DNA from: Amylostereum areolatum
Lineage: Eukaryota; Basidiomycota; Agaricomycetes; Russulales; Stereaceae
Assembly (NCBI GenBank): GCA_012932865.1
Contig: SAXG01000068.1
Coordinates: 62,001 to 126,000 of the forward strand
DNA length: 64,000 bases
Reading direction: 5' to 3'
The notes under the pieces were generated by a model. It saw nothing but the letters and a program-made list of their open reading frames with translations, ran no database searches and was not told the origin of the DNA. A program made the translations under genes and the position numbers. This document shows positions 3,695-60,379 of this stretch, in pieces (the first letter of the stretch is position 1; every line of letters starts with the position of its first letter).

Positions 3695-3960
3695 CTATTT
3701 GTTATGGACGGTCCTTATCACGTGACAAGCGGCTCAGGCTACAGTACTCTTACGTGTGAGAGGTGGGATCAGGTGATCCAGACGTCTCGGTTGCGCGAAG
3801 GTTAGAGTCGATAAGCGAAGCAGTAAGTATTCACGGAATACTTAGGCGAGCTTTCGACTTTAGTTTAGATTCTCTTTAGTAGACTTAAGAGGAGGTTCTT
3901 TAGTTAGAACAGTCCTGTATTTACAAAGAGAACGAGCTGAGGAATGGCTCGTTCGATGAG

Positions 3961-3982
3961 CCTCCTTTTATAAGAAAGGAGG
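3961..3982 (-). promoter_or_regulatory. TATA box inside a palindrome of the C LTR
   Basis: CCTCCTTT (3961-3968) and AAAGGAGG (3975-3982) form an 8-bp inverted repeat around TATAAG. On the element's coding strand this reads TTATAAAAGG, a good TATA box. The same palindrome is present at the matching place in the 5' LTR and in the solo LTR at 55518-56066. Confidence 0.6.
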
Positions 3983-4025
3983 TCGAGTAAATATATGTAC
4001 ATTGAGCGACGGTCACATCAAGTAT

Positions 4026-4469
4026 CTACGGGGATGAGACTGTGGCACCGTCGCGGCTGTGCCGTTGAGACGGTGACGATCTGTGGCACTGTCGTCGGGA
4101 CGGTGACGATCTGTGGCACTGTCGTCGTCGCGTCATTGAGACGGTTACGAACTGGGGCACAGTCGTAATCCGTCGTTTAGCGACGTCCTTCCTAATAAGG
4201 CAATGGAAAATGAAGTACCTTGGACAAGTTGTAACACTATCCCCCTCTCTAGAATCTACGTCTCGTAGATTCCTGAATCGAAGCGGTTCTAGAGGGATTT
4301 CTTGAACATGCTGTCGATTGCTCGCTCTTCGCCATTGGAGGAGGAATATTGTTGATGCGAGGAATATGAGGATCGTAAGTCCTACGATGATGCTGATGAC
4401 GGCGATGAGCCAGCGTGGAGTAGGCGTATTGAAAATCGCGAGATCGGGCGACTGAGTGGGCTGCATCAC
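4026..4469 (-). CDS. Small membrane-anchored ORF at the 3' end of element C
   Basis: The frame encodes about 147 residues. Near residues 19-45 there is one strongly hydrophobic stretch (from WLIAVISIIVGL to TIFLLQW) followed at once by basic residues, as in a single-pass membrane protein. The part after about residue 78 is encoded by the 3' LTR and is unlikely to matter. It sits where envelope-like genes sit in some gypsy elements, but no envelope motif, signal peptide cleavage site or cysteine pattern is visible. It could instead be the last exon of a spliced transcript. I do not recognise the protein. Confidence 0.35.
   Translation of the reverse strand: MMQPTQSPDLAIFNTPTPRWLIAVISIIVGLTILIFLASTIFLLQWRRASNRQHVQEIPLEPLRFRNLRDVDSREGDSVTTCPRYFIFHCLIRKDVAKRRITTVPQFVTVSMTRRRQCHRSSPSRRQCHRSSPSQRHSRDGATVSSP
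4069..4127 (-). repeat. 30-bp tandem repeat in the C LTR U3
   Basis: A 29-bp unit starting GACGGTGACGATCTG occurs at 4069-4097 and again at 4099-4127, with diverged partial units on both sides. It lies upstream of the TATA box on the element's strand, so it is placed like a U3 enhancer array. The solo LTR at 55518-56066 carries its own, differently spaced units. Confidence 0.75.
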
Positions 4470-7076: not shown

Positions 7077-7547
7077 TAAGCTCGAGATCTGTTTACTCTT
7101 GCACCACCCTACGACCGTCCCTACGTACTGTAGCGTAGTAGTAGTAGTACCCGTCTGGTACTGACCTTGTTCTTCCCCCGTGCCGCCCTAGACCGTTGCC
7201 CCCAGAGTACGCGACTCGTTACCCTGACATTGTGGTCGTGCGCACGTATACCGGTGCCGGCTTGACGTTTCCTCGAAACGTTACACCTACTCGAGACTCT
7301 CCAATACCAGGAGTTGAAAGCTCAGAGGTGACAGTAGAAGGTGCACCTTTGGTGTAGGAAACGAGTAAAAGCGGCGAAAGGAAAGCGGTTTAGGAAGTCT
7401 TTGGGCTCGTGTCCCCTAGACGAAGAGACAGCCAACAGGTCGAGAAGACTGAGGCAGACCGTCTTGCGATCTCATAACAGAACCACCTTCCCTCGACAAA
7501 ATCTTCCCTTGCCGCACAGAGTAACCATTTCGACTGGGGGCTCGTGC

Positions 7548-7949
7548 ATGGAAGATTGGCGCTCGCAAGTACAAGAATTCATCCCCATCAGCCACGACGC
7601 TATCATCTCCCTCATCAACGAATCTAAAGACCCTTGGGCCTGGCACAATTGGAAGGTCGCCCTCGGTGTAGAAGAACTTGAAGACTCCGTCGTAGACATC
7701 CACTTCTATCGCCTCAAAATAAGCGAACAAGGAAACGGAAACCTCTACGTCTACTCCTGCCCATACGTCACCTACCGCTACAAACTCGAGCAACCCCCAA
7801 AGTCCTTCTACGCGCCCAACGAGAAAATACCAGTAGACACTCGACACACCCACCGCCTCCTTACACCAGGCAACACCCCCAGCCCCACACCAGAGCCAGA
7901 GGTCATCGACCTCACCCAGCCAGAGGTCATCGACCTCACCCACTTATAA
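7548..7949 (+). CDS. ORF1 of A1: small pre-gag protein with tandem SUMO-interaction-like motifs
   Basis: The first AUG after the LTR is at 7548 and gives 133 residues. The core contains DPWAWHNWKV and a beta-rich stretch (VDIHFYRLKI, LYVYSCPYVTYRY). The C-terminus has two VIDLT motifs (residues 119-123 and 127-131), the classical SUMO-interacting motif, made by a 24-bp tandem duplication (7896-7919 and 7920-7943). A2 has one unit. The frame ends at TAA (7947-7949) and is then open in the same phase for 102 codons into gag, so an N-terminally extended Gag is conceivable by readthrough. The start context (T at -3, G at +4) is weak. The family is unknown to me. Confidence 0.6.
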   Translation: MEDWRSQVQEFIPISHDAIISLINESKDPWAWHNWKVALGVEELEDSVVDIHFYRLKISEQGNGNLYVYSCPYVTYRYKLEQPPKSFYAPNEKIPVDTRHTHRLLTPGNTPSPTPEPEVIDLTQPEVIDLTHL

Positions 7950-8255: not shown

Positions 8256-9513
8256 ATGGCTGCCCAGTGGATCCGCACCGACCCCCAACCCCCTCTCCCC
8301 GCCGAACTTGCCAACTGCACCGAAATCGGTGGAACATGGAACATTGTCATCGGCCAAACTGGCTCTCCCATCCAACACATGAATAACGGCACCGACGATG
8401 CCTGGCTCATGGAAGTAAATGGCCAATGGGTCGCCATCCCTGCCGTGCTTGTTGCTGCCCTCAACCTGCCACCCCCCACCGTCAACGTCACGGCCCCCCC
8501 CATCACCGTCAACCCCCCTGCGGTCACTGTTAGTGCCCCAGCCGCCGCCGCCGCCAGACCCCCCCGAAAGAAAGTCCACGCGAAAACTCCTGAAGGCTTC
8601 TCTGGGAAACGAGAGGACTTCAATGACTGGATGCGGTCGTGCGAGGAATACATGCGAGCTGCTGAGGATGACCTCGTGACGGACAAGGACAAAGTCCTCT
8701 TCATTCTCACCTACATGACGGGGGAGGCAGCACGCACCTGGAAGGCCGAGTATGAGGATGCACACTTGGCCAATGGAGCCATGGTCGCCTGGGTGGACTT
8801 CCACAAAGCACTCAAAGGGGCCTTCACCGACGTCAATGAGCAGCACCGTGCCGCAGTTGAACTGGACGGGTTCAAACAGACGAAGGGTACCACTGCCCAT
8901 GAATACTTCGCCAAGTTCGAGCAACTCGCAAGAAAGGCAGGATACTCCACGGCGCAGGACCCTATCCACCTCATGCAGCTGCTCAAACACAACGTCTACT
9001 ATCGGACCATCGACTCCATCTACGACAGCGGTCACGTTCCTCAGAAATATGAGGACCTCAAAGAGCGCATCATCCTGATCGACGGTCTGCGACAGGAGCG
9101 GGAGGACCTTAAGACCCAGCGCAGTGGACCCGTGCAGAACCAAAAACCCAAAGGACAAGGATCGTCCAATGGGCAACAAGGGGGGCAGGTCCCATGGCGC
9201 CGCGATGGAACCGGCACGGTGCACGGTGGCAAAGGTCAGCCGATGGACGTCAAACCGTGTCGACATCAAGGGGCGATGCTTCCGCTGCGGACAGAATGGC
9301 CACCAGGTGCGGGACTGCAGGGTGGACGTGAAGAACATCCGAGACATGTGGGGGAGGGACCGGTACACGGAACCACCAAAGCGGGAGGCTCGAGCACAGA
9401 CGTTCGAGACGCCCACCGCCTGGGCTAGGAGCCTGTCGGCCGAAGATCGGAAAAGCGTGATGGACGCGCTTCAAGCTCAGCCGAAGGTGGAGGAGAAGAA
9501 GGAGGGTTTTTGA
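8256..9513 (+). pseudogene. gag of A1, one-base frameshift before the zinc knuckle
   Basis: Gag would form the retrotransposon particle. The Met at 8256 has a strong context (A at -3, G at +4). A Pro/Ala-rich N-terminal segment is followed by a typical retrotransposon capsid fold (DFNDWMRSCEEYMRAAE, YMTGEAARTWKAEYED, FAKFEQLARKAGYS). An extra A within 9252-9254 (absent in A2) moves the CCHC knuckle CFRCGQNGHQVRDC into the next frame, so Gag translated from 8256 stops at 9428 without the knuckle. The corrected frame ends EKKEGF at 9513, at the slippery site. Intact length would be about 419 residues. The base could be a true mutation or an assembly error in this single copy. Confidence 0.85.
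9504..9513 (+). promoter_or_regulatory. Probable -1 frameshift site between gag and pol (A1)
   Basis: G GGT TTT (9504-9510) is a canonical X XXY YYZ heptamer in the gag phase, followed at once by the gag stop TGA (9511-9513). Pol is open in the -1 frame across it. A2 has the identical heptamer and stop at 35097-35106. Confidence 0.75.
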
Positions 9514-13685: not shown

Positions 13686-14134
13686 ACGGTCTATAATTTT
13701 CTTTTTACTTTACATCGGTTACACGCTTTAGGACTTATCGACTTATCACCGGTCCGGCTCCACCTTGGCCCGGACCCGGCTCATCTATATCCCGCCCGGA
13801 CCCACGTGACTCATCTCGGTCCGGGTCTGACTCCTTTCTCTTGACTCATGCTGTACGATACTGACTCATGCTGTGCTCTTTTACATACGACTGCTTACTT
13901 ATACTTGGTCTGCTTACTGATCGCCGTGTATTGGTTGCTTACCTAAGTCTCTCTCCTCTTGTGTATATAAGGCTCGCTCTCGCTGTACATATTCCTTATC
14001 TCGAGCTAGTCAATTCTACCGACTTTGCTTGCTTTCCCTTGTCTGTCGCCGTGTCTGATCGGCTCCCCTCTGTCGTCCTCTTCCTCTGTCAGCTTTGTCG
14101 TAACTTGGTGCTGTCGCACTAGTCGTTGCTGACA
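13678..14134 (+). repeat. 3' LTR of A1
   Basis: Identical to the 5' LTR except for four substitutions (A/T, T/C, C/T, T/C). It begins directly after the tract AAGGAAGGGGTGA and ends GTTGCTGACA, followed by TSD cgtag. Confidence 0.97.
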
Positions 14135-14750
14135 CGTAGGCGGCGCAGAAGGTGTGTCTTTCCCAGTTGAGCCAGTTGACTCTGTGTCCGACTTCAGTAA
14201 GGAATCTCCGGAGCTCTGCGACGTTGAGTACAGCTGCTGCGCTAGCTTCCGGAATCGTCGAAGAAGCTTGACCTCTCGCTCCTCCATCTCGGTCGAGAGC
14301 GTCAGGTACCTCGAGTCTAGCTGGCGGAGTTCTCCATCGAGCATCTTGACGTGGTTCTTCAGGATGTCCTGGACGTCGGCCGACTCCCTCCTGAGGTCGT
14401 CGATCCGCTGTCTGGCCTGCTCGAGTGCTACTCCGGCTATCATGCGGGCTATCTGACTCTCGAGTATCGGGGAATCGGGCGTTGGGACTTCCGCTGCTCT
14501 GGGCCACGGGGATTGCATTAGCACCTGTGAGGAATCCGGGTGCTTCAGTTAGGGTTCTTCTGTGTGCTTATAAGCGGCTTACCCCTTGCTCTTCCGTCTG
14601 TTCTTCCGTCTGGTCCTGACCTAGGCGGAGAAGGTACTGACTTAATTGCAAGGATTGCTGCTGATCGAGCGATGAAGCAGTCTCCGCAGAGGGCGCGTTC
14701 CTGTTGAGAGTGGTGAACTCGGTTGCAGACGAGGCGGAGGTGGTCGACAT
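14135..14750 (-). pseudogene. Post-pol CCHC ORF of C, 5' part with a predicted 58-nt intron
   Basis: Exon 1 runs from an ATG at 14750 to 14583 (56 codons, Gln/Ser-rich). A 58-nt intron follows (14582-14525) with donor GTAAGC, a CTAAC branch match and acceptor CACAG. Exon 2 starts at 14524 in the same phase and encodes a helical, probably coiled-coil segment (about MIAGVALEQARQRIDDLRR and on through MEEREVKLLRRF). The frame is broken at 14135 by A1 and resumes at 6614. The unbroken gene would be about 619 residues, ending with the CCHC knuckle. The gene lies 84 bp after the pol stop on the same strand. It may be expressed from a spliced or subgenomic RNA. The function is unknown. Confidence 0.6.
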
Positions 14751-14893
14751 TGCTAGATGAGACGATCGGATTGGTGGAGGAAGTGTTGGCTGCGTTTGGG
14801 GTGGTGGACATTGGTGATCTGTCTTGTTGAACCCGTAGGGTTTTTATCCCCTCCTTGTTAGCAGTGCATTCGCCTGAATGCCGTTGAGTCTCA

Positions 14894-17800: not shown

Positions 17801-18781
17801 CTTCCGTTCCGGTACCGTCATTGGGTACACTTTGCAATTTCGAGGTTTCCATCCTTCAGTCAGGTCTATCGCGTGATCCCAAGGTCTGCTGATTGGAAAG
17901 CGTTCCGACGCTTTCTTTTCGAATACCTTCTGATACTGTTTGTAACTAGACGGAATCATCTCATCGAGTGTCTTCTTCTTCTCTCCTATGGCCGCTCTTT
18001 CTGCGAGTTCTTGTGCCTTGGTTGCTCTTGCTGTTATCCAAATACCGGGTTCGTTTGTTTCTTCTGCAATCGGCATTGTTTCTACGTCAGTCTTTCCCTG
18101 GAACGTTCTGACTATCCTGATATCGGCGAGATCGGAGTCGAATTCGGGGTCTTCTTGTTCTTCTATCGTTGCGTGATGGTTGATCTTCTGTTCTTCGAAT
18201 GATTGTAGAGGGTGTTCGTCTTTTCCTTGGACGATCATTGTTTTACTGGTAGTGGAGCACGTACCTGGACATGTCTGTAGTGTAATCTGTCTCTTTCTCC
18301 AATCGATATGAGGATTGTGTTTCTTGAGCCAAGGAGTTCCTAAGATTACTTCGTCTCCTCCCAGGGCTGTGACGAACAATCCTAAGTTTTCGCGGTGAAT
18401 TTCTCCGTTGATCCCTTCCATCGTCATTGGAAGGTACACTTTCTGTTTGATCTCTCCTAGAGTGTTCCGAGATCCATCAACGTTGTATATCGGTATCGGT
18501 TTCTTAAGTTGGATCAGATTCATCTTGTGTTTTCGTACGAAATCTGGATGGATTAGGGTACTGCTTGCTCTGCTATCTAGTAGCGCTTTCGCTGCGGCCT
18601 TACGGAACTTTCCATGAAATATAACAGGTATATGAATTGATGGAGCGTGCGTTGCTCCGTCTTGGTATGACCTTAGATACACTGTTCTATTTACGTCATC
18701 TCCTATTTCCTGCACAGGAGATTGATTTGAAAAGTTCATTGTCTGTGTCCTTTCAACAGCCGCGGTTGAAGGACGATTCAA
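14894..18781 (-). CDS. pol: Pol polyprotein of C
   Basis: 1295 codons in the -1 phase relative to gag; the frame's head has no AUG. Order: protease (ALLDSRASST, Asp about 69), RT (KKKDGSLRPVQDYRYLN, VVVYMDDILIF), RNase H (IESDASDFAYGAILS), integrase zinc domain (HHDLETIGHPG to CPVC), catalytic TSDFI, SDRGPQF and GETERVN, then a chromodomain (YELETIIA to TWEP) and a very basic C-terminus (RRKKRKTKVRH), a likely nuclear signal. Oddity: the protease reads D-S-R instead of D-S-G (codon AGA at 18569-18571), a G-to-A change that should disable the active site. The rest appears intact. Confidence 0.95.
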   Translation of the reverse strand: MNRPSTAAVERTQTMNFSNQSPVQEIGDDVNRTVYLRSYQDGATHAPSIHIPVIFHGKFRKAAAKALLDSRASSTLIHPDFVRKHKMNLIQLKKPIPIYNVDGSRNTLGEIKQKVYLPMTMEGINGEIHRENLGLFVTALGGDEVILGTPWLKKHNPHIDWRKRQITLQTCPGTCSTTSKTMIVQGKDEHPLQSFEEQKINHHATIEEQEDPEFDSDLADIRIVRTFQGKTDVETMPIAEETNEPGIWITARATKAQELAERAAIGEKKKTLDEMIPSSYKQYQKVFEKKASERFPISRPWDHAIDLTEGWKPRNCKVYPMTVPERKELDTFIDEHLRKGYIRESKSEISSPFFFIKKKDGSLRPVQDYRYLNSITVKNEYPIPLISDLIDKLKGAKIFSKLDLRWGYNNVRIKEGDQWKAAFKTNRGLFKPMVMFFGLTNSPATFQAMMNTLFKELIDTGKVVVYMDDILIFTETLDEHRKLMKEALQLLERNDLFLKPEKCFFEQPSIEYLGVIITHNKVQMDPVKVQGLAEWPTPRKVKEVQSFLGFGNFYRRFIKDYSKIARPLFQLTKKDHEWNWTTECEHTFERLKREFTSSPILIMPDENKPFRIESDASDFAYGAILSQPDEIERWHPVAYLSKSLSPAEQNYEIYDKELLGVVKALEHWRHYLEGANHKIEIWTDHKNLEYFTTAQKLNRRQARWSLYLSRFDYTLVHKPGSTNKADGLSRRSDHKEDIPDNDDRILLHPSVFRARATGRGTVEAVGDKELLKELRNFSHLDDEVWTALDTIKRSGPRTLAKGIKDWNFENDLIIRKGKIYVPQNLELRRMILKSHHDLETIGHPGEMKTLELVQRNFWWPKMISFVKGYVQGCPVCQSTKNVTHPAKHPLQPTEIPERPWETITSDFITDLPISNGFDSINVVVDRFTKTAVFTPCLKTINAEGTADLLIDNVYRRFGLWKRMISDRGPQFASKVFQSICESLGVISLLSTAYHPQTDGETERVNQELEQYLRAFCNGDQTNWAKLLPKAEFAHNIRQHSATKASPFELLHGYQPVFNPAIPTDPRIPTAEERIKNFKDAWDNAEASLEIAAKLMKMQHDQTFTLRDQLKQGDQVWLDGKNLNTVYPKTKLAPKRFGPFKIEKVIGPVTYRLELPAKWKIHPVFHAALLIPFKETEQYGEAYEKPPPELVNDEELYELETIIASKLDKRYSEPLHYFVKWKGYPDSGNTWEPASNLEGSKDAIAEFHRNNPKAPKLPPQPIRDTNTEATDRDETDATQQEQRPTRRKKRKTKVRH

Positions 18782-18787
18782 AAACCC
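18778..18787 (-). promoter_or_regulatory. Probable -1 frameshift site between gag and pol (C)
   Basis: On the minus strand G GGT TTT is followed by TGA, exactly as in family A. Gag stops at the TGA. Pol reads TTG AAT CGT in the -1 phase. Confidence 0.75.
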
Positions 18788-20094
18788 TGATTGTCTTTGA
18801 ACATGTTGGCAGTGCGTGCGAACGTTTCACTGTCCATCTTGTTCACAAGCTTGGTGATCTGATCAATCGGGGATTCTTCCTCTGTTAGATTCACTGTTCG
18901 TGCATTGATTGTCGTTTGGGTACGTTTCTCTGGGCAGTTCCTGGAGATGTGTCCTGGCTTCCGGCAATAGAAGCATGATCCTGATTTCTGGAGTTCGGTA
19001 CGTTCTTGCGGGGTAAGGCGTCTGAAGTTTCGGCCGTTGTTTCCGGTCTGAGCGGCCCTGGTGGTGGTAACGTTTCCTTTATTTCCGTTTCTTCGGAATG
19101 GAACGTACGCCTGTGGTTTCTTGTACAGGAGTGTGAGATCACTCGTCGGGTTCATTGGTCTCGTATAATGTCGTTGGAATGCTTGAGCTTCTCGCCAGTT
19201 ATTATCGATACGCAATGCGAGCTCATACCATTCATCAATATCGTTCGAGATGTGATCTCTCTTGAGGATCTCGACTACGATATCATTGCGTAGTCCTCTC
19301 TTGAATTGGTCGATCAGTGCTTTATGATCGTAGCCCGCTTCCATGGCGTAGTCCCTGAAGATTGTAATATAATCTTTGGTTTCCATAGTCCCTTGTTCTA
19401 GGCGCTGTATATTGAATCTAGCGTCTCTTCCTAGGTCTATTTCTCCGAAGGTCTCTAAGAAGTAGTCGCGGAATGCCGTCCATGTGAGGTATACTTCTGG
19501 ATCTAGACCATGATCTCGTATCTTATCAATCTTACTTATTAAGAGGGATGCCCAGTGGAGGGCTGGTCCATCGGTGAGATGCGAGAGTACAAAGGTTATC
19601 TTACGCATGTTGGCTGCATACGCGTTGGGAAAGGCTATGAAGCGAAGTACGCATTGTTCTATGAACTTTGCTGCTTTCGCTCGATCTCTTCCGTCGTATA
19701 CTCCCAGTGCGTTCAGTTTGAATCCTTTGTCCTTATCATCGGGTTTTGATCCGATTGTGCCTGTTCCTCCTGGTGGGGAATTCCCTGGTGGGTGCTTCGA
19801 TTTTTTCGGAAGATCCGCGGTTGCTCCTCTTCCGAAGACATAGTCTCTGACTTCTTTTCCCTTTTTGTTATCTATTGATTGGTTGGAAAATGATGGTGAT
19901 GGTGGCGATAGCGTTCTCCATCCTATTGGGTCGGTCGTGCCAAATCCTAGGGAGAATCGAGTCTCATGTCTCGGTTTTGCGGGATCGGCTGGTGTTGGAG
20001 TTGCAGGCGTCTGGCGCGGTACATTAGTCTCTCCAGGGGGGACATTGCCAAGTGCGGTGGCGGGGTTGGGTATCGAGGTGGCGGTGTCTCCCAT
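18778..20094 (-). CDS. gag: gag of C
   Basis: 438 codons from the first AUG of the internal region. After a Pro/Thr-rich N-terminus comes a capsid-like helical domain (KAAKFIEQCVLRF, LTDGPALHWASLL, RDYFLETFGEIDL, GYDHKALIDQFKRGL) and then one CCHC knuckle CFYCRKPGHISRNC. It ends DNQGF at the slippery heptamer. The reading frame is open upstream of this AUG for a further 266 codons without any Met, back to an in-frame TAG beside the LTR. The AUG at 20094 is chosen because it is the first in any frame. Confidence 0.9.
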   Translation of the reverse strand: MGDTATSIPNPATALGNVPPGETNVPRQTPATPTPADPAKPRHETRFSLGFGTTDPIGWRTLSPPSPSFSNQSIDNKKGKEVRDYVFGRGATADLPKKSKHPPGNSPPGGTGTIGSKPDDKDKGFKLNALGVYDGRDRAKAAKFIEQCVLRFIAFPNAYAANMRKITFVLSHLTDGPALHWASLLISKIDKIRDHGLDPEVYLTWTAFRDYFLETFGEIDLGRDARFNIQRLEQGTMETKDYITIFRDYAMEAGYDHKALIDQFKRGLRNDIVVEILKRDHISNDIDEWYELALRIDNNWREAQAFQRHYTRPMNPTSDLTLLYKKPQAYVPFRRNGNKGNVTTTRAAQTGNNGRNFRRLTPQERTELQKSGSCFYCRKPGHISRNCPEKRTQTTINARTVNLTEEESPIDQITKLVNKMDSETFARTANMFKDNQGF

Positions 20095-20892
20095 TGATGC
20101 GATGTTTTCGGGTTTTCTGAATAGATTTCCTTTTCTTCCTCTTGTGGTTCCGAAGATGTCGTCAGGTGATGGGGATCTTGTTGGGTTCTCTGTATGTTCT
20201 TTCGTTTCTGCTGCGCTCGGTGGGCTGCTTTCTCGACTTCCTCCGGGATCGGACTTAATTTGGGGGTTTGATATAGTTCTCTTAGGTTCTGGCGCGGTTT
20301 CCTCTGGAGGTGGTGCGGCTGTTGCGGGTTCTTGAGGATGCTGGAGTTCGGTTCGAGGGTTCTGTGGTTCGGTTGTCGTATCGGCTGTGTCGGTATCGGG
20401 ATCAAATTCCCAGTAGTCCTTAATATTCCCGGTGTAAGGTTTCTCTTCGACTTTCTGTGCGTCCGGGTGTTTCCAGAGTTCTTCTGATGAGAGGGGCCCG
20501 ATATGAGGTCTTGAATAATCTGGGCGCTTCCAATGTGAATTGTCGTAGCTTCCGTCTTCCTTTTCTCTTTTGGATCTATCTTTGAAGTATTCTGCTGCTG
20601 GGGGAAGGTTGTATCTGTATATGGGCGGGTTCCACTGGTATGCGTATGTCCCTTTGCTTTCTTTCGCGACGAGGGCTCCGTCGTAGTAAAAAAGGAGATG
20701 ATAGGGGTCAAATGTCCAGCGATGATCTTCGTTTCCGTTAGGGAAGTCTCGACTGCAGTTTGATTGGAGTTGAGGGATCTCAAAATCTGATGGTCTTTTT
20801 TCAGCGGATTGTTCCGCTGACTCCGTGGTGGGTGTTTTGTTTGACGCTCTGCGCCAAACTGTAGGGTGAGCTAGTGTAGAGGAGAGCTCGTT
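20095..20892 (-). other. Met-less open extension upstream of gag (C)
   Basis: Translated in the gag phase this gives 266 residues with no stop and no Met. It is protein-like: aromatic-rich parts (RWTFDPYHLLFYYDG, TYAYQWNPPIYRYN, KDYWEFDPD) followed by Pro/Glu/Thr-rich low complexity. No AUG occurs in any of the three minus-strand frames between the LTR and 20094, although CAT is common on the same strand. A non-AUG start, or an unrecognised splice supplying a start, would be needed to make it. Confidence 0.55.
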
Positions 20893-20896
20893 CTAG

Positions 20897-21433
20897 TGTT
20901 ATGGACGGTCCTTATCACGTGACAAGCGGCTCAGGCTACAGTACTCTTACGTGTGAGAGGTGGGATCAGGTGATCCAGACGTCTCGGTTGCGCGAAGGTT
21001 AGAGTCGATAAGCGAAGCAGTAAGTATTCACGGAATACTTAGGCGAGCTTTCGACTTTAGTTTAGATTCTCTTTAGTAGACTTAAGAGGAGGTTCTTTAG
21101 TTAGAACAGTCCTGTATTTACAAAGAGAACGAGCTGAGGAATGGCTCGTTCGATGAGCCTCCTTTTATAAGAAAGGAGGTCGAGTAAATATATGTACATT
21201 GAGCGACGGTCGCATCAAGTATCTACGGGGATGAGACTGTGGCACCGTCGCAGCTGTGCCGTTGAGACGGTGACGATCTGTGGCACTGTCGTCGGGACGG
21301 TGACGATCTGTGGCACTGTCGTCGTCGCGTCATTGAGACGGTTACGAACTGGGGCACAGTCGTAATCCGTCGTTTAGCGACGTCCTTCCTAATAAGGCAA
21401 TGGAAAATGAAGTACCTTGGACAAGTTGTAACA
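20897..21433 (-). repeat. 5' LTR of C
   Basis: 537 bp with the same palindromic TATA and 30-bp tandem units as the 3' LTR. The internal region starts immediately at an in-frame TAG (20893-20895). The outer flank is TSD ctatt. Confidence 0.95.
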
Positions 21434-21436
21434 CTA

Positions 21437-22626
21437 TTAACGGTTGTACAGAGAATTGTAGGGAGCCTTCACGGAAAATGTAGTAGCAGCTGTACTGAAC
21501 TGTACAAGTGGATAGAAAACAGATTGTATCGGATTAACCCTAACCTTAACTGTCTGAGCGTCACAAATCGTTGCGCCTCTCCCAAAAAAAGATGACATAA
21601 TAAATGTTCCTAAAAGGAACCGTAAAATATTGTTCCAATGACTTTTTTCGAGATGACTCTGCATATCCTTGCTAGTATAGTAGCACCTGAATGTACGTGA
21701 GTACACACTCATAGAGTAACAATATGAAACATACTGGGGCTGCTCTTCCTCGTTGTCATCCTCGCTCGCTGAATCCTGGTCTGGCTTCTTGACGCTCTCT
21801 TCCTCATCACTCTCCGTTGCAACAGCCATGCCCTTGATAGCCGCTGTCTTGTTTTGTTGGACCAAACACTTCATACCAAGGACAGCATTGCCATCTACCT
21901 GGCCCTTGCCTTTGTTGGCCTTAGCCTCCTTAGCTACACGTGCCGTGCTGGTAGAAAATATGTAAGTAGAAAATATAGCCAGAAAGTTGATTCCAACTCA
22001 CAGCTTCTTATCATGTTCATCATCAGCAGCCGTTCTCTTGCGCAACTTCTTCGGCTGTACAGTCTTGCACGCCATTCCGATCAGTTATAATGCAATCCAC
22101 AATAGAAGGAGTACACACTCCAACTCGTCCTCAGAGACGATGAAGCCCTTTAGGTTGCCGTCAGAGTCAGCATCCAAATCAACATCCATGAGCTCGTCCA
22201 TCGACTCTTTGGCTTCATCGTCAACCAGAGATTTAACACCTTTGGCCTTGGTCTCTTTTACGTCCATATCCATATTGTTGTCTTCAGAGGCATCACCATC
22301 CTTGTCAGAGTCGGGCTGGACAGGGTGGGGAGTATCCTCCCGGCTAATAGCACATATATTCTGTCAGTCAAACCCTCATAAGATATATATTAAGTGAGAT
22401 ATACACTTTCTTACGCCTCTCAATAACAACCTCGGCTCTATTAGAAATGATGCGTTTGATACCACGAGTGCTGAACTTTGAGTTAGCATAAGTAGAAGCA
22501 GACAGGAGAAGAACAGACTTTATCTTTGCCTTCGCGTCTTTCTCGACCTTGACCTCTTCTTCTTCATCTGAAGAATTGATGCTGATTACATGGACCTTGG
22601 AGGGTTTGTTCTCCTCATCACTATCC
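21437..22626 (-). CDS. Acidic, Lys-rich nuclear-type protein, 3' exons of a host-like gene
   Basis: Five exons can be read in continuous phase: 22626-22405, 22343-22115, 22054-22002, 21947-21735 and 21686-21437. Their introns are 61, 60, 54 and 48 nt, with donors GTATAT, GTACTC, GTGAGT and GTATGT and acceptors TAG, CAG, CAG and CAG. The product alternates acidic Ser/Asp/Glu runs (SSDEEEEVKVEKD, MDVDLDADSDG, TESDEEES) with basic patches (PKKLRKRTAAD, AKEAKANKGKG), which suggests a chromatin or nucleolar protein. A short CYYTSKD...SHLEKSHW segment could be a decayed zinc finger. The stop lies at the C insertion site. The upstream part is cut by B1. I do not recognise the family. Confidence 0.55.
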
Positions 22627-22674
22627 CTAGAACGAGTTAGAATCTGTTGCTCACTCTACGAAGCGAAGAGCTCC

Positions 22675-23094
22675 TGTCACGGATCGCTCCATTTCTTTCT
22701 TCATTTGCAGACCTTGTACACGCGACGCATCACGGCACATGACTTTCCTTCGCATCACATGCTCCAACGACGTCATTGCCCGGACTTCCGAACGGTGTTC
22801 CGTATCCTTATCTATGACATCATTGCTCCGGACCTCTGTCCTCCTCCCCATGACCCCTTTCTTATTGTTCCCCCCGCTCGCACCACTATCACATCGCATC
22901 GCACCATCGTTCCCACTTGTATATAAGGACAGTATCCCTTTTCCCTTTTCCTCAGACTGTCCATCTCGTCATACGGTACTGTAGCGCACGTTGCACTACC
23001 CTAGACCCCGGCACTCTCGAATATATTTTCTTCTCGCTCCTCCCATCGTCGCGACTTAGGCGGTTCATCGGTCTCATAAACTGTGTTTCTGACA
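22675..23094 (+). repeat. 5' LTR of B1
   Basis: TGTCACGGATCG to GTTTCTGACA; TATA box TATATAAGG at 22920-22928. Confidence 0.95.
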
Positions 23095-23096
23095 CC

Positions 23097-23711
23097 TGGA
23101 CAGTCTACCCCTACACCTACCTCGCACCCCTCTCTCCATCTACCTCTGCCGTCTCTACGACGTTAAAAACTCCCACCACGGACCTCCCGAACGCACCGGT
23201 TTTCCTCCCGTTCAACGGAAAGCCGATCACCCCCCGCGACGACGCACCACTCCCCTACCCTTGGTCCGACACCGTCACCATCAACTGCCTCGTCCCCGTA
23301 CAGAACCTCTGCAAGAAAGATCCCTGGACCGCGCACGGCCTCAACTTCCGCATCTTCGAGTGGAGGTGGCACAAGGATCACGGTACTGTCGTCCTCGCCC
23401 TATACGTCCGGATCACTACGTGCATCAACGTAGATCTCGAACGCCTTGAATTCACCCTCCACGCCCCCACCTACCACACATACCTCATCCAGGACGCCCC
23501 CAACCCGATCCTCCAAACCAGTTTCACCTCTGTCTCCCAGTTTAACCGCCGGACCCCCGAATCCACCCCGCCACCAGTCCTCCGTCCCACCATCAAGGGT
23601 AAGACCCTTCGTCGCCGCCACCACGAACATAAGATCCGCCAGGCAGTAAAAGCCGGCTACCTCACCAAGAAACTCCTCGGCCGTCGCCCCATCGCGGCGG
23701 ACTTCTTCTAG
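23097..23711 (+). CDS. ORF1 of family B (Met-less pre-gag frame)
   Basis: 204 codons in phase with gag, open from the LTR edge (and into the LTR) to TAG at 23709-23711. Not one Met codon is present. The translated protein looks real: NAPVFLPFNGKPITPRDD, KKDPWTAHGLNFRIF, a beta-rich stretch (VVLALYVRITTCINVDL) and a basic C-terminus (KGKTLRRRHHEHKIRQ). B2 and B3 keep the frame almost unchanged. The DPW...H start and beta-rich centre recall ORF1 of family A, which sits in the same place. No known domain is recognised. Expression would need a non-AUG start. Confidence 0.5.
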   Translation, partial: WTVYPYTYLAPLSPSTSAVSTTLKTPTTDLPNAPVFLPFNGKPITPRDDAPLPYPWSDTVTINCLVPVQNLCKKDPWTAHGLNFRIFEWRWHKDHGTVVLALYVRITTCINVDLERLEFTLHAPTYHTYLIQDAPNPILQTSFTSVSQFNRRTPESTPPPVLRPTIKGKTLRRRHHEHKIRQAVKAGYLTKKLLGRRPIAADFF

Positions 23712-24302
23712 ACCATCATCACGTCCTCCACAGCCCCTCGTCCCCCCACTCCGAACCTCCCCCCAGGCGTTTTTCGAGACTACTGTCCCGAAGAATACTA
23801 TATCCTCACCTCGCAGCAGACTAAGGAATCCGTACGTTGGCTGCACGACGAACCAAACCGGCAACGTCGAGACTGGTACTTCGACGACCGTGACGAACAA
23901 CCCTACGTCGAAGAATCGGATTTTGCCACCGCTGCGGACGTTCTACAGCGCTTCCTGAACCCCCCTCCGACCAACTCGCCCCCACCCCGTCGACGTACTG
24001 TAATCGAAGTCCCAGAAGGGATCAACCACAACGACACCACTGGGAAGTGGTACGCCTATAGACGGAACAAGAACGGAACCCCAGGACGATCAGTAGTTGA
24101 GTGGCAGCCCACTTCGTTCAGTCCCGTCCAAGATCACTGGTCGTGGCATCATAACCAGCAATTCCTCACCCCCGCCGACTTCCTTGTTGCAAAACAAGTT
24201 GAGGACGAAGTTGAAGAAGCAGAAGAACGCCGACGAGAAACCCTACGCCGCCTTGATCAAGAACTCGCCCAATCCCTCACCATCCCCCTCCCCTTCGACA
24301 AG
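23712..24302 (+). other. Met-less in-frame extension between ORF1 and gag (B1)
   Basis: 197 codons after the TAG, in gag phase, with no other stop and no Met. Features include RDYCPEEYYILTSQQT, RQRRDWYFDDRDEQPYV, GKWYAYRRNKNG and a charged helix (VEDEVEEAEERRRETLRRL) leading into Gag. From 23095 to 24302 I found no ATG in any plus-strand frame. Confidence 0.55.
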
Positions 24303-25328
24303 ATGTCCGATGCCGAATCCAAACCTGCCGTCTCCAAGCGGGAGATCGGCCCCAAGCCAAAGCCATTCAAAGGCGATAGACGCGACACCCTCCGGTTCTC
24401 CCTCGAGCTCCGCATGTTCCTGCGCGTTAACAAGGATGTTTATGCCACAGATGACGCCAAGATGATGCTCCTCCTCAGCCTGATGGAGGACGACACGGCG
24501 AAAGCCTGGGCCACGCATCGCCGCATGGAACTCTTCGCCGACGAAGACGAGAAGGAAGACGCCGAAACCCTCGACCCCACGCCCCCAACACTCCACTATA
24601 GCTCCTACAAAGAGCTCTTCGAGAGGTTTGGCAAAGACTTCGTGCCCGTCGATCCGAAGATAGAGGCTCAGCGTAAGATCAACGAGCTCGCAATGACCAC
24701 CCGGGACGTCACTGACTTTATCACCGAGTTTGAGATGCTGGCAACCATGTCGGCGTACGACGACGAGGCGCTAATCCACTTCTTCAAGAAGGGACTTCAG
24801 CGTGACCTCGGCAAGCAGGTGGCCCGGTCGTACCCGTTCCCCACCAAGCTCGCGGAGTGGAAGGAGCGCGCCCGCCGCATCAACCACCAGTGGCTCGAAG
24901 AGAACCCGGAGAGGAAGAGCAGTCAGTCCAAGGGGGCTGTCGCGCTCACCTCGAACGGTTCGACCAACGACTCCTCGTCACGCCGAGTCGGCGCCTTCAC
25001 CAACACCTCGACCCGCCCTGCAAAGCTGACGGACGACGAGCGCGCAAAGATGATGCGCGAAGGCAAGTGCTTCATGTGTCGACAAGCCGGTCACGTCTCT
25101 CGCGACTGCCCCAACCGCGACTCGAGCGCGCAACGGGTGGGCGCAGTAGAGACTGGGTCCAAGGCCCCTCCCCTGCCGACGAACACGGCTCCGTCCACTG
25201 CGAAAGCAGCTCCCGACCCATCCAAAACCATCGCGGCGATCACTCGCCAGCTGAAGGATCTGGACGCGGAAGGCAAGGAGCAGGCAGTAGCGCTGTTGAA
25301 GGACATCCTGGAATCGCAGGATTTTTGA
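24303..25328 (+). CDS. gag: gag of B1
   Basis: 341 codons from the first AUG downstream of the LTR. The capsid-like helical region (RFSLELRMFLRVNKD, LMEDDTAKAWATHR, YKELFERFGKDF, FITEFEMLATMSAYDD) is followed by a CCHC knuckle CFMCRQAGHVSRDC and a C-terminal helix. It ends LESQDF at TGA 25326-25328. The product would form the virus-like particle and bind the element RNA. B2 encodes a 341-aa Gag in which I saw no difference. Confidence 0.93.
   Translation: MSDAESKPAVSKREIGPKPKPFKGDRRDTLRFSLELRMFLRVNKDVYATDDAKMMLLLSLMEDDTAKAWATHRRMELFADEDEKEDAETLDPTPPTLHYSSYKELFERFGKDFVPVDPKIEAQRKINELAMTTRDVTDFITEFEMLATMSAYDDEALIHFFKKGLQRDLGKQVARSYPFPTKLAEWKERARRINHQWLEENPERKSSQSKGAVALTSNGSTNDSSSRRVGAFTNTSTRPAKLTDDERAKMMREGKCFMCRQAGHVSRDCPNRDSSAQRVGAVETGSKAPPLPTNTAPSTAKAAPDPSKTIAAITRQLKDLDAEGKEQAVALLKDILESQDF
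25319..25328 (+). promoter_or_regulatory. Probable -1 frameshift site between gag and pol (B1)
   Basis: G GAT TTT directly before TGA. This is not a perfect X XXY YYZ heptamer, but it resembles the known functional GGAUUUA type. Pol is open in the -1 phase. B2 has the same sequence at 45100-45109 (minus). Confidence 0.65.
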
Positions 25329-46716: not shown

Positions 46717-47333
46717 CTAGAAGAAGTCCGCCGCGATGGGGCGACGGCCGAGGAGTTTCTTGGTGAGGTAGCCGGCTTTTACTGCCTGGCGGATCTTATG
46801 TTCGTGGTGGCGGCGACGAAGGGTCTTACCCTTGATGGTGGGACGGAGGACTGGTGGCGGGGTGGATTCGGGGGTTCGACGGTTAAACTGGGAGACGGAG
46901 GTGAAACTGGTTTGGAGGATCGGGTTGGGGGCGTCTTGGATGAGGTAGGTGTGGTAGGTGGGGGCGTGGAGGGTGAATTCAAGGCGTTCGAGATCTACGT
47001 TGATGCACGTAGTGATCCGGACGTATAGGGCGAGGACGACAGTACCGTGATCCTTGTGCCACCTCCACTCGAAGATGCGGAAGTTGAGGCCGTGCGCGGT
47101 CCAGGGATCTTTCTTGCAGAGGTTCTGTACGGGGACGAGGCAGTTGACGGTGACGGCGTCGGACCAAGGGTAGGGGAGTGGTGCATCGTCGCGGGGGGTG
47201 ATCGGCTTTCCGTTGAACGGGAGGAAAACCGGTGCGTTCGGGAGGTCCGTGGTGGGAGTTTTTAACGTCGTAGAGACGGCAGAGGTAGATGGAGAGAGGG
47301 GTGCGAGGTAGGCGTAGGGGGAGACTGTCCAGG
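46717..47333 (-). CDS. ORF1 of B2 (Met-less pre-gag frame)
   Basis: Same frame as in B1, open from the LTR to TAG at 46717-46719, then open in phase to the gag AUG (594 bases from stop to AUG, as in B1). No in-frame Met is present. One out-of-frame ATG arose by a C-to-T change near 47182. Confidence 0.5.
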
Positions 47334-55517: not shown

Positions 55518-56066
55518 TGTTAAGGACGGTCCTTATCACGTGACAAGCGACTCAGGCTACAGTACTCGTACGTGTGAGAAGTGGGATCAGGTGATCCAGA
55601 CGTCTCGGTTATGCGAAGGTTGAGGTCGATAAGCGAAGCAGTAAGTCTTCACGGAAGACTTAGGCGAGCTTTCGACTTAGTTACTTTGGGTTCTCTTTAA
55701 TAGCTTTAAGAGGAGGTTCTATTTAGAACAGTCCTGTATTTACAAAGAGAACGAGCTGGGGAATAGCTCATTCATTGAGCCTCCTTTTATAAGAAAGGAG
55801 GTCGAGTAAACATATGTACATTGAGCGACGGTTGTATCAAGTATCTACGGGAACGAGACTGTGGCACCGTCGTGGCTATGCCGTTGAGACGGTGACGATC
55901 TGCGGCACCGTCGTGGCTATGCCGTTGAGACGGTGACAATCTGTGGCACCGTTGTGATCGCGTCGTTGAGACAGTTACGAACTGGGGCACAGTCGTAATC
56001 CGTCGTTTAGCGACGTCCTTCCGAATAAGGTAAGGGAAAAGGAGATACCTTATCGGAGTTGTAACA
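55518..56066 (-). mobile_element. Solo LTR of family C in the RNase H region of D
   Basis: 549 bp, diverged from the C LTRs (start TGTTAAGG for TGTTATGG) but with the palindromic TATA and similar GACGGTGAC units. The TSD ggcct (55513-55517 and 56067-56071) is perfect. Removing it restores the RNase H frame across the junction. Confidence 0.95.
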
Positions 56067-58397: not shown

Positions 58398-59650
58398 TCG
58401 GCCTCGGTCTCGTTCGTCCCTTCATTCCATGGTACTATTTGCGTCGGGTATCCCACCGTGGATTCAAACTGGTTGATCCATTTGTCCGTCTCGACTAGGT
58501 TCACCTGCGTTGTGTTACCCTGGTTGTCCCGAATGACGCTGAAGGCAATGCACCACCATATCTGCTCAGGCTGCGGTAGCAGGCGCGAATCCCCCGGGAT
58601 GGCCTTCACTGGGCACTCGTTGCTTCAATGGTCTGTGCTTGCGCATGCCCAGCACTCGCCCTTCCCGACTCCGATGTTCCCCGGCCTGAGGGGGAACCCC
58701 ATGAGCATGGTGACCCGTCCCCTGTCGCCGTGTTTGGCCCGCCACGCGCGGACGTCCGCCATGTACTGGTCCTTCCCTGACTGCGTGTCCGGCCTCTGTG
58801 GCCATAGCGCCAGGACCTCCTGGAGTTGTGTTGCGTTGATGTGCGGCGGCGGGTCTCGTGCCCCAGACGTTGGCCTCGCGAATGCTGTTCCTCCACGCCC
58901 TCCCATTGTGGTACTGGTGGTGCTCGGGCTTTGTGCGCTTGCCTGTACCCCGACTGTACTTGGCTGTGGACGCTGGTTTATGCTCAGCGAACGCATTCCT
59001 TGAAGGAGCGGCATCATGGATGACTGTTGCCTCGTAGTCGCTTCCAACTGCTCGATGCGTGCCTCCATGATTGCATACCGTGTTGCGCGCTCGGCCGCAT
59101 CGCGTACTTTCGCCTTGTCGACCGCCGCGATAGCATCCGTGAACGCCTTCCAGTTCGCGAAGGTCGCTGCAATATTGTCTTTGATGCAGGGTGGTAGGTG
59201 GTTTCGTGCTATCCCTATGAGGTCGGTCTTCTGCGCGATTCCCGCCTCTCGTGCCAGCTTCATGAGTCTCGATGCGTGGGCTACATGTTTCATCACCTCC
59301 TTCCCTCCCACCTGGACTGTCGTCCCCAATTCCTCCTCCTTCAGCTTTGCATCCGCAATCTCCGCTTCGATATCTGCTGTCGGCCGCTTCACGACCTCAA
59401 TCGTGGGGAACGCCGCCTCAAACTCCGTGACCACGTCGACGAACGTGATCTTCTTCTTGGCATCGAGGTTTTTGAACCATTCTTTCGCCGGTGAACCGCC
59501 CGCTAGTTGGTCCTGAAAGAACTCAATCTTCTCGTTGTCCGAAGTTAACTTGAATCCCCGAATAGAGTTGCGAATGTCGGAAAGGAAATCGTCGGATCGT
59601 TTGTTGTCGAGGTCTCCTCGAAAACACTTGGTGCGCTCATTCTCCGTCAT
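58385..59650 (-). pseudogene. gag of D, one in-frame stop within the zinc knuckle
   Basis: From the first in-frame Met (59650) the frame gives a capsid-like domain (DDFLSDIRNSIRGFKL, IEFFQDQLAGGSPAKEWF, VVTEFEAAFP), a helical middle, and a C-terminal knuckle CWACASTDH-stop-SNEC, where a TGA (58625-58627) replaces one residue of the CCHC motif. It ends EAEGKA at TGA 58387-58385. The frame is open upstream to and into the LTR without another Met. Confidence 0.85.
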
Positions 59651-60164
59651 TGTGTGATACGCAGTTACGAAGTCGTCGTCGGGATTGCTCTGTTGTGGTG
59701 ATTGTGGGGGTGTAACGTTGGTTGGTGAATTGCCGCGTGAGTTAGTTGGTGATACGGTTGGTGTTGATACGAACGATGGGGTCGAAGGGAGTGAGGAGAG
59801 CGATGAGGTCGATAAGAACGATAGGGCTGGGGGGTACGATCGTAGGGCTGGCGAGAAGAACGGGACCGCTGGAGGGAACGATGGGACCGCTGGTGTTCCG
59901 GGAAGTGATGAAGCTGATGTTGAAGGTTTATCGGGTGAATGGTTCCTCGATACTTGAAGGCTTGTTGCGGGTTTGCGTGCTGTGAACCATCCTCGTTTGT
60001 CTCGTGGTCGGAGGTCGGTGAGTCTTGTCGGGAGGTCTGTGAGCTGTCCTCGAAATGACGCAATGGTGGCTTGCTGTTTGCTGTAGAACACTGGACGCGC
60101 TGGGAGCTGTAGGATCGCAATAGAACACAATGTGACGTGGATTGTTCCGCTCTCGTCACCACGA
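59651..60164 (-). other. Met-less open extension upstream of gag (D)
   Basis: 171 codons in gag phase from the LTR edge to the first Met, with no stop. It is basic and aromatic at first, then Pro/Ser/Thr-rich (TPAVPSFPPAVPFFSPALR). One AUG in another phase (near 59990) is the only AUG in about 510 nt of sense strand. Confidence 0.5.
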
Positions 60165-60379
60165 TGGACACGGAGGTAGATCCCCTGAGTGGTGAGGTGG
60201 ATTGTTTTCTGTTCTACTGTACTCTGCATGCGTTACATTCCTGCTCGGCCATCCGGCCCGGTCCTCCTTCTCCTCATCTTATCTTCTCCTCGTCGCCCTC
60301 TCCTCCACCTTCTCCTCCTCCTTGTCCTTATCCTCCTCCGATCCTCCCTCTTCCTTCTCCTCACGTGACACCCACTCCA
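60165..60379 (-). repeat. 5' LTR of D
   Basis: 215 bp, about 97% identical to the 3' copy by eye. The sequence after it would hold the primer site; no tRNA match is claimed. Confidence 0.85.

Follow-up and report, generated by a model that had tools for sequence, protein, structure and literature searches.

A 64,000-nucleotide stretch of the Amylostereum areolatum genome (assembly GCA_012932865.1, contig SAXG01000068.1, positions 62,001 to 126,000), hereafter the window, carries copies of three families of long terminal repeat (LTR) retrotransposons, A, B and C, whose leaders, from the presumed transcription start to gag, are strongly depleted of AUG in all frames. In B and C, substitution patterns show that the leaders encode protein under purifying selection. 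These features are probably the result of leaky scanning with a weak first start upstream of gag in all three families.

Ribosomes would scan from the cap, and a minority would initiate at a weak site: an ACG (in C and B) or a CUG (in B', a subfamily of B), each set in CCCACC-NNN-G, or, in A, an AUG whose context is poor. The product would be Gag with a 244-residue N-terminal extension in C and a separate protein, encoded by open reading frame 1 (ORF1), in A and B. Most ribosomes would bypass the weak site and initiate at the gag AUG, which could be reached because no AUG intervenes for 0.7-1.1 kb. Under leaky scanning, AUG would be expected to be rare in place of the ACG and to be avoided in each of the three frames. 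The second coding stretch of A and B, joined to gag, probably begins at a near-cognate codon just past the ORF1 stop, although this step is a guess.

AUG depletion and coding signal in the leaders

ATGs in the window were counted over the stretch that begins near the TATA box and ends with the gag AUG, the transcription start being placed from the TATA motif. The A copy (A1) has two (7548, the ORF1 start, and 8256, gag) against 15.1 expected from base composition, the B copy B1 has one (24303, gag) against 12.0, and the C copy has one (20094, gag) against 12.3. No AUG lies between TATA+30 and the start site in any of the three, leaving no short upstream ORF for shunting. An earlier note on this DNA had described such AUG deserts, with Met-less frames in gag phase, in four families; the frames lie where it placed them, and the deserts stand for A1, B1 and C. 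The fourth family, D, drops out: an in-phase ATG (60229), within a repeat flanking the element, opens its frame, so its Met-less stretch needs no non-AUG start. An out-of-frame ATG (59990) lies inside the D stretch, and in the sole other D match found (L016) stops interrupt this frame both within the leader and around it.

The depletion extends to copies elsewhere in the 57.1 Mb assembly (182 contigs), which yielded 76 loci, 73 of them with a gag match (two of these are D; L025, L027 and L035 have none). Ten leaders, from TATA+30 to gag (one A, one B, two B' and six C), hand-picked and mostly from copies previously seen to have few AUGs, were compared with 1000 dinucleotide shuffles each: zero to one ATG precedes the gag AUG, against 6.4-8.5 in the shuffles, and ATG is the most depleted of the 64 trinucleotides in all ten. 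No ATG depletion is seen in the 1000 bases after the gag AUG in any of them. In a second, stricter control, out-of-frame ATGs were counted under synonymous permutation, with protein and codon usage held constant; none occurs in B ORF1 (2.7 expected, P 0.005), in the second B frame (3.6 expected, P 0.001) or in four C leaders (3.8-4.4 expected, P 0.000-0.003). Met is also missing in frame, from all 244 codons of the C extension and all 374 codons of the two B frames; gag and pol have 1.6-3.5% Met.

Among copies with intact frames and a TATA motif, duplicates of one place excluded, 11 of 14 in family C have no AUG (the others 1, 1 and 2), and 11 of 16 in family A have the ORF1 AUG alone. The remaining five A copies have one to four extra; one of these, L063, has lost its gag AUG. 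The four B and B' copies have 0, 1, 1 and 2, the last of them (L043) with its gag AUG lost, and the second window copy of B (B2) has one. Some copies left out for lack of a TATA match are whole or almost whole in other respects: among C copies with open leaders, L033 has AUGs at -980, -71 and -68 and L042 none after -1088; among B' copies, L048 has one and L054 two. In both L012 and L044, an ACG became AUG by one C-to-T change, the place differing between the two. Broken copies may hold many (eight in L055).

The coding signal was assessed in B and C from the ratio of nonsynonymous to synonymous polymorphism (pN/pS) or substitution (dN/dS). The C leader has a pooled pN/pS of 0.446 (16 copies with an open leader) and a median pairwise dN/dS of 0.40 (n=118), against 0.62 and 1.09 for pN/pS in the other sense frames and 0.66, 0.55 and 1.24 in the antisense frames; C gag is at 0.22 (14 copies). 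By section, 5' to 3', the leader gives 0.34, 0.16, 0.59 and 0.84, i.e., the coding signal, as read from these ratios, sits in the first 125 codons. Comparison of B (L011) with B' (L044) gives a dN/dS of 0.41 in ORF1, 0.36 in the second frame and 0.20 in gag. Two of the checks proposed in the earlier note are covered here: AUG counts fall below those of dinucleotide shuffles in each of the chosen leaders, and leader dN/dS is below 1 in B and C. Its suggestion that coding is kept while AUG is avoided is supported in B and C by substitution patterns and both kinds of shuffle; in A, AUG avoidance is supported by the dinucleotide shuffle and not by synonymous permutation.

Start sites and the frames ahead of gag

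When each locus is searched upstream of gag for CCCACC-any codon-G, 23 of 27 C loci have ACG and the other four no match. The 14 B and B' loci have ACG (five), ATG (one, L047), CTG (five, all B') or nothing at that place (three); the ACG of B and the CTG of B' fall on the same aligned base. Genome-wide, the first 100 listed of 223 places with the B motif comprise 94 ACG, 5 ATG and 1 ACA, and the first 100 listed of 133 with the C motif 97 ACG, 2 ATG and 1 ACT. Many copies are young, so retention of the ACG alone proves little; it is position, context and the change in B' to CTG, also near-cognate, that count. B1 has 13 near-cognate codons that combine a purine at -3 with G at +4, and its ACG is the 5'-most; in the window C copy, the ACG is the third of 14. 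The context has parallels in Cryptococcus, also a basidiomycete. In two of its tRNA synthetases, the codons used as starts, AUU and ACG, stand behind cccacc or gccacc, the ArgRS start being cccaccAUU and the LeuRS start gccaccACGAUU, as given in excerpts of the source (PMC7049704).

Insertions and deletions point to the same codon. With L013 as reference, 4 of 15 open C copies carry one inserted base 11 bases ahead of the ACG, and a non-triplet indel occurs somewhere in the 290 bases upstream of it, mostly in the LTR, in 14 of the 15; from the ACG to gag, there is only a 9-base insertion, partly an effect of selecting open leaders. Between L011 and L044, the net shift is 1 base upstream of the start and 3 bases within ORF1. 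As the frame upstream is not kept, the coding frame would begin at the ACG or CTG. From these patterns, we infer that ACG in C and B and CTG in B' are the start codons of the leader frames. In C, where the ACG frame continues into gag, initiation there would yield a Gag of 682 residues beside the 438-residue form from the first AUG. The earlier note's proposal of Gag together with an N-terminally extended Gag from a non-AUG start fits C well, where the start would be a specific ACG. For A and B, in which ORF1 has its own stop, the proposal falls short, and it does not apply to D.

Considered as a general start feature, a hairpin lying 20 bases downstream of the B ACG was rejected, since B' lacks it. 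Folding covered 120-base windows at starts and 150-base windows at ORF1 stops, and no fold common to B, B' and C was found in the windows at starts.

In A and B, a conserved stop (TAA in A, TAG in B) ends the first frame, and a second Met-less frame, open into gag, lies directly behind it. The first frame is inferred to be a separate ORF1, started by AUG in A, ACG in B and CTG in B'. Stop-codon readthrough or ribosomal frameshifting could instead join ORF1 to the second frame and gag, and the frames are indeed in phase on either side of one stop in A and B. This is unlikely: the second frame is off the ORF1 phase in all four B' copies with an intact ORF1 (by two in L043, L044 and L054 and by one in L048), of which L043 has lost its gag AUG and L054 is interrupted by a stop within the second frame. 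B' ORF1 has 178 codons where intact and its AADFF-stop end is conserved. In the fifth B' copy, L053, with both frames broken, the ORF1 stop is in gag phase. Because ORF1 and gag are differently phased in B and B', no single conserved readthrough, frameshift or splice could join the two in both; for A taken alone, recoding may apply.

Splicing could join the leader frames to an AUG or to gag and remove the need for a non-AUG start. Many short introns are typical of basidiomycete genes, and B offers a candidate of 66 bases, GTAAAA ... CTCAC ... TTCTAG, that spans the ORF1 stop and whose excision keeps the gag frame. B' retains the same sites and length (except for TAA in L043), yet excision there misses the gag frame, and the candidate was rejected. 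In C, the 11 of 14 copies without AUG are AUG-less from TATA+30 to gag, so an internal intron cannot supply one. Splicing is accordingly quite unlikely.

Lack of AUG could also follow from base composition of the leader or from an RNA function (packaging, structure or an antisense gene) rather than from scanning. The leaders are C-rich or A-rich, and packaging signals are often located in such leaders. Both the dinucleotide and the synonymous-codon controls oppose this explanation, as do the C antisense ratios, all above that of the sense frame although the lowest is not far off; no Rfam match at the gathering score was found in the window. Taken together, this explanation is quite unlikely. 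Internal ribosome entry at a non-AUG codon, known from dicistroviruses (PMC4132737), is a very unlikely explanation of the leader proteins: by itself it leaves AUG avoidance upstream of and within the frames unexplained, and B, B' and C share no fold in the 120-base windows at their starts.

Under leaky scanning, the second frame of A and B probably has its own start. Right behind the ORF1 stop are the near-cognate codons AUC-AUC-ACG in B and AUU in A, and AUC-AUC, AUC-AUU or ACC-AUC in B'. Insertions just downstream of the stop in L048 and L053 speak against use of these codons in all copies.

Several observations count against leaky scanning or narrow its basis. The ten shuffled leaders, hand-picked and related within families, are not ten independent tests. 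Synonymous permutation is not significant for A (0 vs 1.6, P 0.111), uninformative for the second A stretch, where the null mean is 0, and marginal for the B' frames (1 vs 3.4, P 0.074; 0 vs 1.9, P 0.042). Intact copies hold one or two AUGs in B and C and one to four extra in A, and ATG occupies the start site itself in 7 of the 200 listed motif places of B and C. The C antisense frame at 0.55 leaves a small margin for the leader as a whole, and the last 57 codons of the C extension are at 0.84. The general start hairpin failed in B'. The B' copies are few and partly broken, and the bases after the ORF1 stop vary among them, with no good candidate for a second-frame start common to the copies. 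Finally, no homology was detected among the ORF1 proteins, so the case rests on position and context and not on one shared protein.

Their homology had been suspected by eye, and profile comparison gave E values of 0.14 (A/B), 0.15 (A/C) and 0.46 (B/C); the second stretches of A and B, compared in the same way, gave E 0.025 at a probability of 2%. A bolder claim, tentative and rather doubtful, is that fungal chromodomain retrotransposons have a multi-cistron leader and gag: accessory proteins before gag would each start independently at a near-cognate codon, the later one immediately after the earlier one's stop, over about 1.1 kb kept nearly free of AUG, and three families whose accessory proteins lack detectable relation would have converged on this arrangement.

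The elements and their relatives

Pfam matches in A, B and C comprise gag and then, in one pol frame, protease, reverse transcriptase, RNase H, integrase and a chromodomain: by domain content, these are Ty3/gypsy chromodomain elements (chromoviruses). LTR pairs surround the window copies of A and B; the C copy has only a 5' LTR nearby. Its 3' LTR was not found beside the pol end (window 14000-14893), and the remaining C-type LTRs in the window are at 3700-4240 (99.6%) and 55518-56051 (88.6%). Coordinates are collected in Table 1.

Table 1. Leader and gag features of the four families, in window coordinates.
Feature	Position	Strand	Basis or remark
Family C, putative ACG start codon, context CCCACC-ACG-GA	20824..20826	-	motif, conservation, frame boundary
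Family C, Met-less extension, 244 codons, in gag frame	20095..20826	-	
Family C, gag from first AUG; Retrotrans_gag, zinc knuckle	18778..20094	-	Pfam
Family C, AUG-free region, ~TATA+30 (TATA near 21169) through LTR end to ACG	20827..21139	-	
Family B, putative ORF1 ACG start codon, context CCCACC-ACG-GA (B': CTG)	23178..23180	+	
Family B, ORF1, 177 codons, Met-less, stop TAG, conserved end AADFF-stop	23178..23711	+	
Family B, second Met-less stretch, open into gag	23712..24302	+	ORF1 frame here, different frame in B'
Family B, gag from first AUG	24303..25328	+	
B2 (second window B copy), ORF1, same ACG context	46717..47250	-	single AUG, at -1061 relative to gag
Family A, ORF1, 133 codons, AUG with U at -3	7548..7949	+	
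Family A, Met-less stretch, 102 codons, gag frame, behind ORF1 TAA	7950..8255	+	
Family A, gag	8256..9428	+	
Family D, gag frame from in-phase ATG at 60229; outside the pattern	58625..60229	-	

B' (copies L043, L044, L048, L053 and L054; L011 serves as the B copy for comparison) differs from B unevenly. The leader and the ORF1 end are almost unchanged, and protein identity is about one half in the ORF1 middle and in the second frame. Synonymous divergence (dS) between L011 and L044 is 0.84 in ORF1 and 1.11 in the second frame, compared with 0.41 in gag. B' is perhaps a mosaic formed by recombination.

The motif GGGTTTTTGA or GGATTTTTGA is present where gag ends in B and C, and in the corresponding region of A (window 18778-18787, - strand; 25319-25328, + strand; 9504-9513, + strand), with 30 A, 12 B and 20 C matches across the loci, duplicates counted; this motif is likely a -1 frameshift site into pol. 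In most of the A copies listed, the match to A1 gag covers just residues 1 to about 335, so the A1 gag end (window 9260-9428) seems to be read in another frame. A 9-base motif, GTACTGTAG, recurs in the LTRs of all three families, on the downstream side of the TATA box (7125-7133, + strand; 22976-22984, + strand; 20936-20944, - strand).

Searches for relatives of the leader proteins returned little. Pfam at E up to 1 gave, for six leader proteins, only Big_7 in the C extension (E 0.14, below the cut-off and judged chance); among PDB sequences, the C extension had no match and B ORF1 one at E 0.06 (PAP10), also judged chance. The C extension had no match in IMG/VR. Structure prediction with AlphaFold reached a mean pLDDT of 38.9 for B ORF1, from a single sequence, and of 45.4 for the C extension, from two, and both models were too poor to use. 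In the protein database, no match was found for the C leader alone among 481 candidates or for the second frame plus gag of B and B' among 7995 candidates scored. The C extension plus gag had one match among 7994 candidates scored, a hypothetical protein (P0001) from Amylostereum chailletii with a 215-residue Met-less leader-like stretch followed by the gag Met. In that gene model, sequence without a match to the element (Pfam PF22939, precomputed) is joined ahead of the Met-less leader frame of a C-type element, a chimera of the kind expected when annotation requires an AUG.

The B or C start motif occurs at 356 places in this one genome (223 + 133), intact and broken copies together, and AUG-based annotation would miss coding sequence behind these motifs. 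If leaky scanning is right, an exact codon is available for testing: the earlier note named no start codon, and ACG and CTG are proposed here.

Comparison with known translation strategies

The glyco-Gag of murine leukaemia virus starts at a CUG, and the earlier note had named it as a known parallel. By sequence, the likeness would hold for the end product of C, a putative in-frame N-terminal Gag extension from a near-cognate codon; for A and B, with their intervening stop, rice tungro bacilliform virus is the better parallel. Even in C, the extension differs from glyco-Gag in its 244 codons, its lack of a Pfam match and its AUG-free leader.

Two other systems share some features. In PEG10, a CUG start 34 codons upstream of the AUG was shown by mutation, and a -1 frameshift follows the frame (PMC2800197, in excerpts). 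PEG10 and C would thus both have an extended product from a CUG or near-cognate start, but PEG10 is a retrotransposon-derived mammalian host gene with a short extension, and these excerpts report no AUG desert. The Cryptococcus ArgRS and LeuRS genes match in being fungal, with a near-cognate start in cccacc/gccacc context and further starts downstream, and differ in being cellular genes with mitochondrial targeting sequences (excerpts of PMC7049704). No account of such leader starts in fungal LTR elements was met in open-access PMC, which does not show its absence from print. In the parts of PMC5902531 drawn on here, LTR retrotransposons are usually described as gag and pol joined by frameshifting.

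The closest parallel is the plant pararetrovirus arrangement. In rice tungro bacilliform virus, ORF I starts at an AUU used by about 10% of ribosomes, ORFs I and II are AUG-free over 900 nt, and ORF III is reached by leaky scanning; changing the AUU to AUG, or strengthening the next start, lowered the downstream product (PMC5902531, same parts). Like this virus and the badnaviruses (Caulimoviridae), as covered there, the elements would have a weak first start; two long coding stretches poor in AUG span about 0.7-1.1 kb, and the main frame begins at the first good AUG. In the elements, the leader frames upstream of the main frame are AUG-free in window A1, B1 and C and in most intact C and A copies, and several B copies have one or two AUGs. 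Unlike the virus, these are fungal LTR retrotransposons with a chromodomain; the proposed start is ACG or CUG instead of AUU; the first frame of C is fused to gag; and A1, B1 and C have no upstream AUG ORF for shunting. If the reading is correct, a translation strategy of plant pararetroviruses extends to Ty3/gypsy elements.

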